From: Henriciella sp.
GTDB lineage: Bacteria > Pseudomonadota > Alphaproteobacteria > Caulobacterales > Hyphomonadaceae
Direction of reading: 5' to 3'
Assembly: GCA_021776655.1 (NCBI GenBank)
Contig: JAJFFK010000024.1
Coordinates: 1-41,737, forward strand
Length of the DNA: 41,737 bases
The translations under genes were made by a program, and so were the position numbers. Shown here one piece after another: positions 11,682 to 15,760 of the stretch; position 1 is the first letter of the stretch; the number at the start of each line of letters is the position of its first letter. A model generated the notes under the pieces. It ran no database searches. It was not told where the DNA came from and saw nothing but the letters and a program-made list of their open reading frames with translations.

Positions 11682-11790
11682 CGTGACACGGCTCCGAATG
11701 ATATGCGCAGCAAGCAGCAAATGGCGTACCAGCTGACAATTCTGCGCGTCTCCGTCTCGTCGGTGCCAGACAACTGACAGCCTGCGCGCG

Positions 11791-11819
11791 TTGACAATTT
11801 CTCTATAAACGCCTATCGC
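11791..11819 (+). promoter_or_regulatory. Promoter of the histidine operon
   Basis: TTGACA (11791-11796) and TATCGC (11814-11819) are separated by exactly 17 bp. The predicted start point is 11826-11827, which is the first base of the leader-peptide ATG, so the leader would be translated from the very 5' end of the mRNA. Confidence 0.6.
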
Positions 11820-11826
11820 GCGCCAC

Positions 11827-11862
11827 ATGAGAACGCTGCATCATCTTCATCAACAGACCTGA
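11827..11862 (+). CDS. Histidine leader peptide
   Basis: An 11-codon frame encoding MRTLHHLHQQT, with three His codons in four positions (11839-11850). It lies in the 5' region of the hisS-hisZ-hisG operon, directly behind a good promoter, and is followed by competing hairpins. This is the layout of a ribosome-stalling attenuator leader: low His-tRNA charging stalls the ribosome at the His codons. It has no Shine-Dalgarno, in keeping with the leaderless start predicted from the promoter. The His run and promoter position are seen; regulation is inference. Confidence 0.72.
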   Translation: MRTLHHLHQQT

Positions 11863-11935
11863 CGCGCCCTCTTGAGGCGCGAATGATCTCGGTGCGCCTT
11901 CAAGTTTTCAGTCCAAAGCCTGACTTGGCTTTTTC
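11863..11935 (+). promoter_or_regulatory. Candidate his transcription attenuator
   Basis: Right after the leader stop, CGCGCC (11863-11868) can pair with GGCGCG (11876-11881), a 1:2 hairpin. Alternatively CTTGAGGCGC (11871-11880) pairs with GCGCCTTCAAG (11894-11904, one bulge), a 2:3 antiterminator. The terminator is AAAGCC-TGACTT-GGCTTT (11915-11932) followed by T residues; an overlapping pairing of CAAGTTTTCAG with CTGACTTG would compete with 2:3. The pairings were found by eye; energies were not calculated. Confidence 0.6.
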
Positions 11936-12095
11936 ACGAAAATCCCAAATGCCCACCGATCCGACCCTATGCCGGGTTGTCTATTCGTAGGACGATCGGT
12001 TTTGAGCACGTCAAACCCAGTCCCGGCTGCCACACTTCACACTTATAGAGGCTTCGTTTATGCGAAGCTTTAAGAGACATAAAAGGCTGACACTC

Positions 12096-13580
12096 ATGAG
12101 CAAGAAAGCTCCAAAATCGCCAAAGCCAATTGACATGGCGCGCAAACCGCGTGGCTTACCGGACAAGCGTGAAGGCCTGATCCATGCTGAGCAGGCGATG
12201 ATCGAACGGGTGACTGCGGTCTATCGGTGTTGGGGCTTTGAGGGCCTGGACACTGGCGCGGTTGAATTTGCCGACGCGCTTGGCAAGTTTCTACCCGATG
12301 ATGACCGTCCAAATGCGGGTGTGTTTGCGTTACAGGATGACGACGAGCAATGGCTAAGCCTGCGCTACGATCTGACCGCGCCGCTCGCGCGCTTTGCAGC
12401 AGAGAATTGGCAGACCTTGCCCAAGCCGTTCCGCCGTTACGCTGCGGGCCCGGTTTGGCGCAATGAAAAGCCAGGCCCGGGTCGGTTTCGTGAGTTCCTG
12501 CAATGTGACGCCGATACGGTTGGCGCGGGCGGCGCACATGTAGATGCCGAAATGATCGCCATGGCCGCCGAAGCGATGCGCGCTGCGGGGGCGGGGGACG
12601 GCGAGTTTACGGTGCGCGTCAACACAAGACGGCTGCTCAATGCGGTCCTCGAAGGCATTGGCGCAACTGGCGAAACCGCGCGGCTGACCATTTTGCGAGC
12701 GCTGGATAAGCTCGACAAGTTTGGCCCATCTGGTGTGGCCGATCTGCTCGGCGCTGGGCGTATGGACGCATCTGGCGACTTCACCAAAGGCGCTGGGTTG
12801 AGCATAGATGGCGTCAAGCGGGTGCTGGCCTTTGCCGAGGCTGGACGCGCGACGCGCGGCGAAACACTTGAGGCGCTCGGCACTGTCGTTGGCACGGGCG
12901 AAGAGGCGAGCGCTGGTCTGGCCGAGCTGGACGCGATTACGCGAGCGTTAGAGGCGTTTGGCGCACCTGAAACCGACATTGTGTTCGATCCCTCGATCGT
13001 GCGCGGGCTGGACTATTATACCGGCCCGGTGTTTGAGGCTGTGCTGCTCAAGCAGACCGTTGATGACCAGGGCGGCGTCGTGCAGATCGGATCGGTTGGC
13101 GGCGGCGGGCGCTATGATGACCTTGTCGCGCGCTTTACCGGCGAGAAAGTCCCTGCAACTGGGTTTTCGGTCGGGATTAGTCGTCTGGCGGCGGCCTTTG
13201 CCATGGCTGGGACTATCGGCGCGTTGAACGGCCCGGTCGTGGTGCTGAACATGGACCGTGATGATCCGAGTGAAGCGCTGAGACTGGCAACTGAGCTGCG
13301 CAATGCCGGTATTCGCGCCGAGGCCTATATGGGGTCTTCAGGTATGCGGCCGCAGATGAAATACGCTGACAGACGCGGTGCGCCCGCCGTGGTGATGGCG
13401 GGGAGTGACGAGCTGGCCAAAGGTGTAGTCACGATCAAGGATCTGAAAGTTGGCGCCGCCAAAGCGGCAGCGATCAGCTCTAATCAGGAATATCGCGAGG
13501 CGCGGCCGGGTCAGTTCGAGGCGCCGCGCGCAGACCTTGTGGCGCGTGTTCGGGCCATTGTGGAGGCCGAAGATGAGTGA
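12096..13580 (+). CDS. hisS: Histidine--tRNA ligase
   Basis: A 494-aa class II aminoacyl-tRNA synthetase that charges tRNA-His in the cytoplasm. Seen are RYDLTAPLAR (90-99), the motif 2 region with PGPGRFREFLQCDAD, the histidine-binding FDPSIVRGLDYYTGPVFE, and motif 3 SVGGGGRYDDLV, with a C-terminal anticodon-binding domain (VVVLNMD to IKDLKVG). It is the first structural gene of hisS-hisZ-hisG and overlaps hisZ by 8 bp. The ATG at 12096 has an AAAGG site; an ATG at 12060 would add 12 basic residues. About 230 bp of untranslated leader separate the His leader peptide from it. Confidence 0.96.
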   Translation: MSKKAPKSPKPIDMARKPRGLPDKREGLIHAEQAMIERVTAVYRCWGFEGLDTGAVEFADALGKFLPDDDRPNAGVFALQDDDEQWLSLRYDLTAPLARFAAENWQTLPKPFRRYAAGPVWRNEKPGPGRFREFLQCDADTVGAGGAHVDAEMIAMAAEAMRAAGAGDGEFTVRVNTRRLLNAVLEGIGATGETARLTILRALDKLDKFGPSGVADLLGAGRMDASGDFTKGAGLSIDGVKRVLAFAEAGRATRGETLEALGTVVGTGEEASAGLAELDAITRALEAFGAPETDIVFDPSIVRGLDYYTGPVFEAVLLKQTVDDQGGVVQIGSVGGGGRYDDLVARFTGEKVPATGFSVGISRLAAAFAMAGTIGALNGPVVVLNMDRDDPSEALRLATELRNAGIRAEAYMGSSGMRPQMKYADRRGAPAVVMAGSDELAKGVVTIKDLKVGAAKAAAISSNQEYREARPGQFEAPRADLVARVRAIVEAEDE

Positions 13581-14682
13581 TTTATTTGCTGGACTCGGCG
13601 GACGCTTTGTCGAGCCGCGCATCGTCATAGAGGCGGCACTGCCACTGGAGCTTTCGGGCGAGGCGGTTCGTGGGCGGATTTGCGTGTTTACCGACGAAGA
13701 GGGCCGCGAATGGGCGCTGCGCCCGGATCTGACACTGCCAGTTGCGGTTGATGAAGTCGCGCGCCGACGCGGCGGGGCCAGCGGCGAGCAGATCGTACGC
13801 TACGCGGCGCCTGTGTTTCGCTTACCAGCCCTGCCCGGCGAGCCAGTTGAATTTTGCCAAGCCGGGTTTGAGCGCTTTGGCGGGGCGAGCACACCGGAGA
13901 CCGACGCGGAAGTTTTCGCCGCCGTGGTTCAGGCCTGCGCTGAGGCAGGTGTGTCCGAGGGCGCAGTTAGGATCGGGGATCTATCCGTCTTCTCTGGCTT
14001 CGTTGACGCCATGAACTTGCCGCCTGAAATCGCGTCGGGTTTGAAGCGTGCCTTTCGCCAGGAGGGCGGGGTGCGGGCATTCCTGAATGGCGCACGAAGT
14101 GGGGCCGCAGCCGGATTGGCCAAGCGGATGCAGGGCATGGACCGCGCCGAAATAGAGGCCTTTGTCGGTGACATTTTCGCGCTAACCGGTATTCGCCCCG
14201 TCGGTGAACGCTCAAGCGAAGAAATCGTCGAACGCCTGTACCAACGTGCGCACGCGGGTGAGATGACGGCACTGCCTGACGACGCCAAAGTGCTGCTCGA
14301 TGCACTACTCGCGGTGGATGTTCCTGCTGGCGATGCTGTCGGCGCGCTAAATGCAATTGCGGCTGGCGCAGGTTTGTCCAAAGTTCAGCCTGTGCTTGAT
14401 GCATTATCTACCCGGATCACGGCGATGCAAAAAAGTGCGCCAGACCTGATGGCGGCGGCAACTTTTGCAACTCGGTTCGGACGCCGCTTCACTTATTATG
14501 ATGGTTTCGTATTTGAGATTGCCGCCGACAAAGACGCCAGTGCAGATGGGCGGCCCTTTGCGGCTGGTGGCCGCTATGATCGATTACTGTTCAACCTGTC
14601 GGGCGGTGATGTTGAGGCGTCGGCGATTGGGGCAATGATTGTTCCTCACCGTCTGAAACCAGGATCAGGAGGCCGCGCATGA
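13573..14682 (+). CDS. hisZ: ATP phosphoribosyltransferase regulatory subunit HisZ
   Basis: A 369-aa HisS-like protein that lacks aminoacylation activity and acts as the regulatory subunit of short-form HisG. It keeps the synthetase-like fold: RPDLTLPVA, a degenerate motif 2 (EFCQAGFERFG), YYDGFVFEI and AAGGRYDRL. It has no anticodon-binding domain. The ATG at 13573 follows TGGAGGCCGAAG inside the hisS end, and its TGA overlaps the hisG ATG, so translation of the three genes is coupled. Confidence 0.94.
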   Translation: MSDLFAGLGGRFVEPRIVIEAALPLELSGEAVRGRICVFTDEEGREWALRPDLTLPVAVDEVARRRGGASGEQIVRYAAPVFRLPALPGEPVEFCQAGFERFGGASTPETDAEVFAAVVQACAEAGVSEGAVRIGDLSVFSGFVDAMNLPPEIASGLKRAFRQEGGVRAFLNGARSGAAAGLAKRMQGMDRAEIEAFVGDIFALTGIRPVGERSSEEIVERLYQRAHAGEMTALPDDAKVLLDALLAVDVPAGDAVGALNAIAAGAGLSKVQPVLDALSTRITAMQKSAPDLMAAATFATRFGRRFTYYDGFVFEIAADKDASADGRPFAAGGRYDRLLFNLSGGDVEASAIGAMIVPHRLKPGSGGRA

Positions 14683-15623
14683 CCCGGTTGTCAATTGCCA
14701 TACCCTCAAAGGGGCGACTCAAGGAAAAGACGGAGGACTGGCTCGCGGCCAGCGGCTTCAGATTACGCCAGGCTGGCGGTGGACGCGGCTATAGCGCCGA
14801 GCTCTCTGGCCTACCGAGCGCAGATATTTTGCTCCTGTCAGCGGGCGAAATTGCCCAAGGCCTGATCTCTGGCGCTCTACATGCCGGGGTCACAGGTCAG
14901 GATTTGCTGCACGAAGCCTCAGGCGATGTGGCGCGCGACATTAAAACGATACGCCAGCTAAACTTTGGCGGCGCTGATGTAATCGTTGCGGTGCCAGCGT
15001 CTTGGCTCGATGTTGATACAATGGCGGATCTCGAAGCGGCCGGCGCACTGTTTCGCGCCCGGCATGGCCGGCGGATGCGGGTGGCGACCAAATATATGCG
15101 CCTGACCCGCCGGTTCTTTGCCGAACAGTCGGTCGGCGAGTACCGCCTCGTCGAAAGCGCCGGAGCAACCGAGGCGGCGCCTGCTTCTGGCAGCGCTGAG
15201 CTGATTGTCGACATCACTTCGACCGGGGCGACGCTGAAAGCAAATGGTCTGAAAATCCTCTCTGATGGTGTCATTCTAAAAAGCCGGGCGGCGCTGACCG
15301 TGTCTAAACAAGCGGCGTGGGATGATGATGTATTCGCCACACTGCGCACCTTGCTTGATGGGACGGAGGCAAGCTTGGCGGCTGCCGCGACAAGGCGATT
15401 AGAGACCGCGCTGCCAATCCCGGGTGAGCTTGCAGAAACGTTCAACCTGCAAGTCTTGCAATCAGGAAGCGCCCTCTGCCCAGTGGCGGATGCAGCCTTG
15501 GTTGCGCGCAAGCTTGCGGCTTCTGGTTTGGGATCTGTTGCAATTACAACAGTCGATCATGTCTTTGCTGAAACCAATTCAGCGTTCGAAAACTTTGTTA
15601 AAGAGCTGTCACAAAGCGCTTGA
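14679..15623 (+). CDS. hisG: ATP phosphoribosyltransferase, catalytic subunit
   Basis: This enzyme performs the first committed step of histidine synthesis, joining ATP and PRPP. At 314 aa it keeps IAIPSKGRLKE, GVTGQDLL, RVATKYMRLTRRFF and the PRPP loop AELIVDITSTGATLKANGL. It is longer than the usual 200-230-aa short form because of an extra C-terminal stretch of roughly 90 residues; the presence of hisZ still places it in the HisZ-dependent group. Overlap with hisZ is ATGA. A strong terminator follows about 70 bp downstream. Confidence 0.95.
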   Translation: MTRLSIAIPSKGRLKEKTEDWLAASGFRLRQAGGGRGYSAELSGLPSADILLLSAGEIAQGLISGALHAGVTGQDLLHEASGDVARDIKTIRQLNFGGADVIVAVPASWLDVDTMADLEAAGALFRARHGRRMRVATKYMRLTRRFFAEQSVGEYRLVESAGATEAAPASGSAELIVDITSTGATLKANGLKILSDGVILKSRAALTVSKQAAWDDDVFATLRTLLDGTEASLAAAATRRLETALPIPGELAETFNLQVLQSGSALCPVADAALVARKLAASGLGSVAITTVDHVFAETNSAFENFVKELSQSA

Positions 15624-15691: not shown

Positions 15692-15726
15692 AGGGCGTGA
15701 TCGGTAACGGTCGCGCCCTTTTTTCT
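15692..15726 (+). terminator. Rho-independent terminator of the his operon
   Basis: A 9-bp stem, AGGGCGTGA (15692-15700) with TCGCGCCCT (15711-15719; one G-U pair), a 10-nt loop, then TTTTTTCTT. It lies about 70 bp after hisG on the same strand. Confidence 0.88.
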
Positions 15727-15760
15727 TGCCAGGCATTGTGATGGTGACCTCAAAGCCAGC

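Follow-up and report, generated by a model that had tools for sequence, protein, structure and literature searches.

The window, i.e., the whole 41,737-nt stretch of Henriciella sp. DNA that was analysed, carries a histidine gene cluster on its forward strand that begins with hisS (Table 1). The preliminary description had counted hisS itself among the controlled genes, and the order hisS-hisZ-hisG was confirmed by profile matches; hisS, the hisZ-like gene and hisG are thus the kind of cognate genes expected as targets of a His attenuator. The best NCBIfam match of the hisZ-like gene, NF008953, reached 239.2 bits, under the cut-off of 384. The terminator-like site at the operon end has a strong U-tract and came from a scan that gave 22 sites overall, against 21.8 expected from shuffles.

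Table 1. Features of the hisS-hisZ-hisG locus in the window, followed by Rfam matches at related hisS loci.
Feature	Position	Strand	Basis
Promoter P1, TTGACA-17 nt-TATCGC	11791..11819	+	Direct reading; TTGAC spacing kept in relatives
Leader ORF MRTLHHLHQQT, apparently leaderless	11827..11862	+	Direct reading and alignment of relatives
Segment A, TGAGAAC, at the putative transcript 5' end, complementary to E	11828..11834	+	A:E pairing in 48 distinct rows
Segment B, CGCGCC, directly after the leader stop, pairs with C	11863..11868	+	B:C paired in 99.7% of cells, hardly varying
Segment C, CTTGAGGCGCG, pairs with B or D	11871..11881	+	Pairing and covariation in the alignment
Segment D, GCGCCTTCAAG, partner of C or, in relatives, of downstream F	11894..11904	+	Alignment, folds
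Segment E and U-tract, GTTTTCA, after the C:D stem	11904..11910	+	Alignment, direct reading
Second hairpin, AAAGCC-TGACTT-GGCTTT, and T-run	11915..11935	+	Window only among 49 aligned leaders (by eye)
Decayed tRNA-Gln(UUG)	11970..12032	+	Remnant of 36 nt at 80.6%; intact gene there in 7 relatives
Candidate promoter P2, TTCACA-15-TTTATG, upstream of hisS	12036..12062	+	Loose pattern in 56/61 loci
hisS, histidyl-tRNA synthetase	12096..13580	+	TIGR00442 above cut-off; PF13393
hisZ-like, ATP phosphoribosyltransferase regulatory subunit	13573..14682	+	NF008953 best NCBIfam match; PF13393
hisG, ATP phosphoribosyltransferase	14679..15623	+	TIGR00070 and PF01634 above cut-off
Terminator-like site at operon end, 12-pair stem and TTTTTCTT	15692..15727	+	Terminator scan
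CC3513 (RF01528) matches	L110 2727-2900, L095 2777-2946, L104 2726-2900, L086 331-489, L076 2709-2875	minus	Rfam
CrfA (RF01527)	L095 6748-6883, L104 6700-6834, L110 6720-6854, L086 4282-4417	hisS strand	Rfam
CrfA (RF01527)	L076 6667-6794, L081 6693-6818, L078 6564-6687	hisS strand	Rfam

Read directly from the sequence, the hexamers of P1, TTGACA (11791-11796) and TATCGC (11814-11819), are followed by seven bases and then by an ATG at 11827. The ORF starting there has 11 codons with His at positions 5, 6 and 8, i.e., the three His codons in four noted in the preliminary description. Short His-rich ORFs are not rare over the whole window (two found, mean 1.35 in 20 shuffles); on the forward strand of 11761-12093, one arose by chance in 2 of 2000 dinucleotide shuffles. 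A consensus scan called neither a promoter nor a terminator at the attenuator site, because TATCGC falls outside the scanner's -10 definition and the C:D loop exceeds the permitted length. The attenuator rises above chance because it is conserved in relatives.

A hisS match was found in 28 of 29 genus genomes, and the leader and its promoter precede hisS at each of these 28 loci. These leaders are 10-12 residues long, with 3-6 His codons in 27 of them; that of L027, MSYGPHPHCA, has two His codons and was missed by the script but found by hand. Loss of the His codons in close relatives, which had been set beforehand as evidence against a His leader, did not occur. The named near-relative records are mainly of Henriciella and Hyphomonas. 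In all, 49 distinct leaders were aligned and 61 were later collected. Six His codons are present in 30 of the 49, and by this comparison the window leader, with three, is an eroded member of its kind. Among codons starting with CA in the 61 leaders, 324 are CAY and 17 are CAR (third base C in 169, T in 155, A in 9 and G in 8). CAC and CAT are nearly equal, and selection therefore acts on the amino acid rather than on the base; a short ORF with a run of His codons kept at the amino-acid level is what an attenuator would require.

The covariance model R1, built from the 49-leader alignment, matched exactly one copy in each of 65 of the 105 family genomes (28 of 29 in the genus itself, 35 in genus g2 and two in genus g51), although these genomes supplied most of its 49 leaders, which therefore match by construction, and the stricter filters of the genome search make misses possible. 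After this search, 20 places were retrieved and added 12 distinct leaders. The pattern of P1 plus His codons was rejected as a unique signature, as it matched in 29 of 29 genus genomes, twice in the window's own genome, and in G028, which has a two-His leader, its matches fall elsewhere. Among 80 sampled loci of the order, which partly duplicate the near-relative records, a homologous leader was present in 10 of 22 loci of family f1 and 12 of 20 of f2, and in none of 17 of f3 (two truncated), 20 of f4 and one of f5, so many related hisS loci lack the leader; unrelated His-rich ORFs at five other loci (L123, L157, L160, L162 and L163) were excluded from the count. A class-wide search gave matches at E 1e-60 in 15 of 86 genomes, and no His-rich short ORF was found at the 14 loci besides the window's, one of which, L286, belongs to the same order.

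The distance from TTGAC to the leader ATG is 35-39 nt in all 49 distinct leaders (37 nt in 27, 36 in 12, 39 in five, 38 in three and 35 in two) and also in the 20 loci fetched after the covariance-model search, and the intervening sequence diverges. Mainly because this distance is constant despite the diverging sequence between, we infer that the window's transcript begins on the leader ATG or no more than about two bases from it, a promoter position that puts +1 where a leaderless mRNA would have it. In the five leaders with 39-nt spacing, the start may lie 1-2 bases upstream of the ATG. The preliminary description had P1 placing the start on the ATG of MRTLHHLHQQT; this was borne out in the form of a predicted start at or next to the ATG, and across genera both the leaderless placement and the association with hisS hold. 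The comparative evidence for a leaderless, His-coding leader before hisS is therefore good.

Segment B begins right after the leader stop codon in 49 of 49 aligned rows. The window's B:C helix joins 11863-11868 with 11876-11881 (-11.0 kcal/mol), and its C:D helix joins 11871-11880 with 11894-11904 in ten pairs with one bulged U (-13.7 kcal/mol), followed by TTTTC. Both helices use C, and mutually exclusive helices directly after the leader stop, as known for attenuators, are thus present. The preliminary description had proposed overlapping hairpins and a T-run terminator before hisS-hisZ-hisG; the hairpins and T-runs are there, but most relatives have a poor U-tract after C:D, with a mean of 2.7 T in the first eight bases at 61 loci, a count for which the script picked an odd hairpin in a few loci. 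The window's fold is only mildly stable: its energy is modest (z = -1.69), and 10 of 200 shuffles fold as well. The second hairpin, a stem-loop at 11915-11932 whose T-run ends at 11934, is hardly opposed by an alternative fold (-7.4 and -8.5 kcal/mol, respectively).

A:E is paired in 89.2% of cells in 48 distinct rows, with a two-sided change from C-G to A-U at one pair in eight rows; this exchange divides two clades and may have arisen once. For C:D, 97.9% of cells are paired, with one C-G for G-C exchange. The covariation score of A:E plus C:D together lies above all 500 shuffles, but that of B:C is slight: it has one two-sided cell only, and 28 of 500 shuffles reach its covariation. B:C yields little covariation because it hardly varies. 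In a few rows, that of the window included, A or E is wrongly placed in the alignment; outside the window, segment A is mostly ATGAACAC or ATGAAAAC. Pairing of D with the downstream segment F is suggested in relatives: on visual inspection, most of the 61 predicted folds contain it, and in L064 and L071 it is made from clearly different sequences. As a set, the D:F folds barely exceed shuffles in stability (mean z -0.95 at 61 loci), and a test of own against foreign energies was not discriminating, with a median of 27 of 60 foreign F regions pairing better than a locus's own. In some relatives, visual inspection also suggested a candidate helix between F and a segment further on and a candidate pairing with the hisS start; these had in part the wrong sign and do not enter the model proposed here.

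This sequence comparison argues that the region is quite probably a ribosome-mediated His attenuator for hisS-hisZ-hisG, with a leader peptide read from a leaderless transcript. The leader, the promoter distance, the exclusive helices and the target operon come from comparison, and to these we add, by inference, the exact 5' end, stalling, termination, the direction of control and the role of A:E. When charged tRNA-His is short, the ribosome would stall on the His codons with its front edge short of B; B would then be free to pair with C, D would be released from C, and RNA polymerase would read into hisS. When tRNA-His is charged, the ribosome would reach the stop codon and cover B, C would pair with D, and in the window the ten-pair C:D stem directly before UUUUC would stop transcription. 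The stall positions and ribosome edges assumed here follow general knowledge of ribosome footprints. The window's C:D stem with TTTTC is a credible terminator by its sequence.

A second candidate promoter, P2, lies closer to hisS. Its pattern (TTCACA/TTCCAA-like, 13-18 bases, TYTAWG-like) occurs just upstream of hisS in 56 of 61 loci, but it is loose and was fitted after inspecting the loci, without a shuffle control. In the window, TTTATG forms the loop of a hairpin at 12051-12068; the TYTAWG hairpin was matched in 36 loci and is fully paired in 28, and its stem pairs change between loci. If P2 is a promoter, a basal supply of hisS may bypass the attenuator.

The poor U-tracts raise the question of how transcription would end in the relatives. 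Termination there might be Rho-dependent or otherwise not intrinsic, such that in Hyphomonas and most Henriciella C:D would expose a C-rich, weakly structured stretch to Rho and D:F would hide it. In 51 of 61 loci the 60 nt that follow D contain more C than G, a figure that stands for this stretch alone, and by eye D:F covers the C-rich stretch in most folds. However, the window and its close relatives have TTTTC after or near C:D, and we consider this route rather unlikely. Less likely still is translational attenuation, in which the alternative folds would govern access to the hisS ribosome site rather than termination. Such attenuators are mentioned in part of PMC9413887, and at 33 of 41 Caulobacteraceae-type loci the hisS start was predicted to become more open when the ribosome stalls (any increase; mean 0.44 vs 0.33), with starts picked by script and without a shuffle control. 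In Hyphomonadaceae, however, it was more open by >0.05 in 12 of 61 (mean 0.43 vs 0.49), and the leader lies about 200-290 nt from hisS. Sequestration of the ribosome-binding site is not supported in Hyphomonadaceae, where stalling gives no predicted gain in access to the hisS start. It is very improbable that a HisR-type DNA-binding repressor or a T-box controls the operon and that the His-rich ORF is incidental. HisR has been reported in some Rhodobacterales and Caulobacterales (PMC9413887, in part), but the leader ORF is conserved at the amino-acid level, and the HisR motif with up to three mismatches gave two matches in the window, against 1.9 expected, neither near the promoter. No operator of the type TGTAnTArnnnnyTnTTACA, as given in a portion of PMC9413887, was found near the promoter, and an Rfam scan of the window gave no T-box or other family at gathering. 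Three Rfam matches around the site at up to E 10 were all far below the cut-off and judged to be chance.

A different question is whether the attenuator senses histidine alone. ARAGORN found an intact tRNA-Gln(UUG) gene between the leader and hisS in 7 of 61 loci and no intact tRNA-Gln at 11970-12032 of the window; a different tRNA-Gln(UUG) is also present in the window's genome. Among 385 class genomes, four have a more distantly related match (78-79%), in each case a tRNA-Gln, one UUG and three CUG. By eye, the D-arm of the locus tRNA-Gln of L002-L006, L071 and L261 is more tRNA-Glu-like than that of the other tRNA-Gln of the window's genome. In the HisS tree the carriers comprise some members of a single Henriciella clade and UBA5336 (genus g51, on a long branch), with L261 outside the tree. 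We read this history as a single gain followed by several losses, usually of the tRNA and the Gln codons together, which would amount to few independent events.

On this basis the leaderless leader might gauge both His and Gln tRNAs and control the synthetase operon together with the intervening extra tRNA-Gln(UUG) gene. Shortage of either charged tRNA would let the polymerase through, and the tRNA-Gln produced would feed back on its own attenuator; the window would then be a relic in which the tRNA has decayed and the Gln codons remain. Gln codons are present in seven of seven leaders with the tRNA-Gln gene and in 2 of 54 others, namely the window, which keeps two Gln codons beside its decayed tRNA, and L269. 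Among 398 genomes of the order, seven carry this tRNA type, in every case in the interval from this leader to hisS. P1 may moreover be the only promoter of the tRNA, because candidate P2 lies downstream of it. However, the seven carriers belong to two related groups, so that the naive Fisher value of 8e-8 overstates the association, a change from His to Gln needs one base change, and in L269 a Gln codon is present although the tRNA is not. A ribosome stalled at codons 10-11 would also have its edge close to or on B, and the effect would be weaker. We therefore regard dual sensing as a tentative idea, more doubtful than not, beside the single histidine attenuator that we favor.

A longer His leader of the MTRTPHHHG type precedes hisS in 46 of 57 Caulobacteraceae-type loci (L074-L110 and L131-L150, with Caulobacter and Phenylobacterium included), in 43 distinct sequences. 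A CTANA element lies 14-17 nt before the ATG in 37 of the 46, consistent with a start that is likewise leaderless. The other 11 loci are without a leader; for two of them (L088 and L089) the sequence before hisS is <30 nt long. Two helices make up the consensus fold, and inspection of the alignment by eye suggests another, in which GAGCCCCGC would pair alternatively with GCGGAUGGGGCUC. In Caulobacter and Phenylobacterium, RF01528 (CC3513), which we take to be a Caulobacter sRNA, overlaps the hisS leader region on the strand opposite hisS, in 4 of 6 and 3 of 16 sources in two scans; this placement reflects either an antisense RNA or a strand error. Another Caulobacter sRNA, CrfA, lies downstream of hisS, on the hisS strand, at seven loci, and an Rfam match to the terC cis-regulatory RNA was noted at L064 (1205-1262, minus strand).

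Leaderless leader peptides are known from Sinorhizobium meliloti trpL (rnTrpL/peTrpL), where the RNA 5' end is the leader ATG and the attenuator is ribosome-dependent (PMC7298713, in part). The present locus resembles it in having an apparently leaderless leader ORF in an alphaproteobacterium and a ribosome-dependent attenuator, here a predicted one, but trpL senses Trp and controls trpE(G), whereas here the codons are for His and the target is hisS-hisZ-hisG; in addition, the 5' end may pair with E here, and some relatives have a tRNA-Gln gene between leader and hisS. With the enteric his attenuator (RF00514) it shares tandem His codons and alternative RNA folds, as outlined in passages of PMC9413887, but it is apparently leaderless and its target begins with hisS; RF00514 gave no match in the window up to E 10, nor at gathering in the 16 relatives scanned. 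In bacilli, His leader peptides that precede hisS* and hisZ are likewise predicted to control hisS-family genes (PMC2965389, in part), but these are Firmicutes, and the passages considered here do not describe a leaderless start for them. The T-box covariance model had no match in the window. CC3513 overlaps the hisS leader region in Caulobacter and Phenylobacterium, but on the strand opposite hisS, and has no match in the window. Leaderless leader peptides, as in trpL, and His leaders before hisS-family genes in bacilli are thus already known. The term hisS is absent from the main text of PMC4287350, and no report of this attenuator was found in the literature searched, which was confined to CC-licensed PMC papers and makes such absence weak evidence. 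Within that literature, the combination of a leaderless His leader, a start-codon region that E could close and an association with tRNA-Gln was not found and appears to be new.

If true, this attenuator would carry leaderless leader-peptide attenuation beyond tryptophan, to histidine and to an operon for a tRNA synthetase. The pairing of the start-codon region with a downstream segment in A:E suggests a way to close a leaderless transcript after one regulatory round, and through the association of Gln codons with tRNA-Gln it could be tested whether a tRNA gene is controlled by that tRNA's codons in an upstream peptide. Caulobacter has many leaderless mRNAs and some leader CDSs, and the claim is checkable in existing data, because 5' ends and ribosome footprints have been mapped genome-wide there (PMC4117421, in part). 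Such attenuation would then occur in two alphaproteobacterial families, the model genus Caulobacter included.
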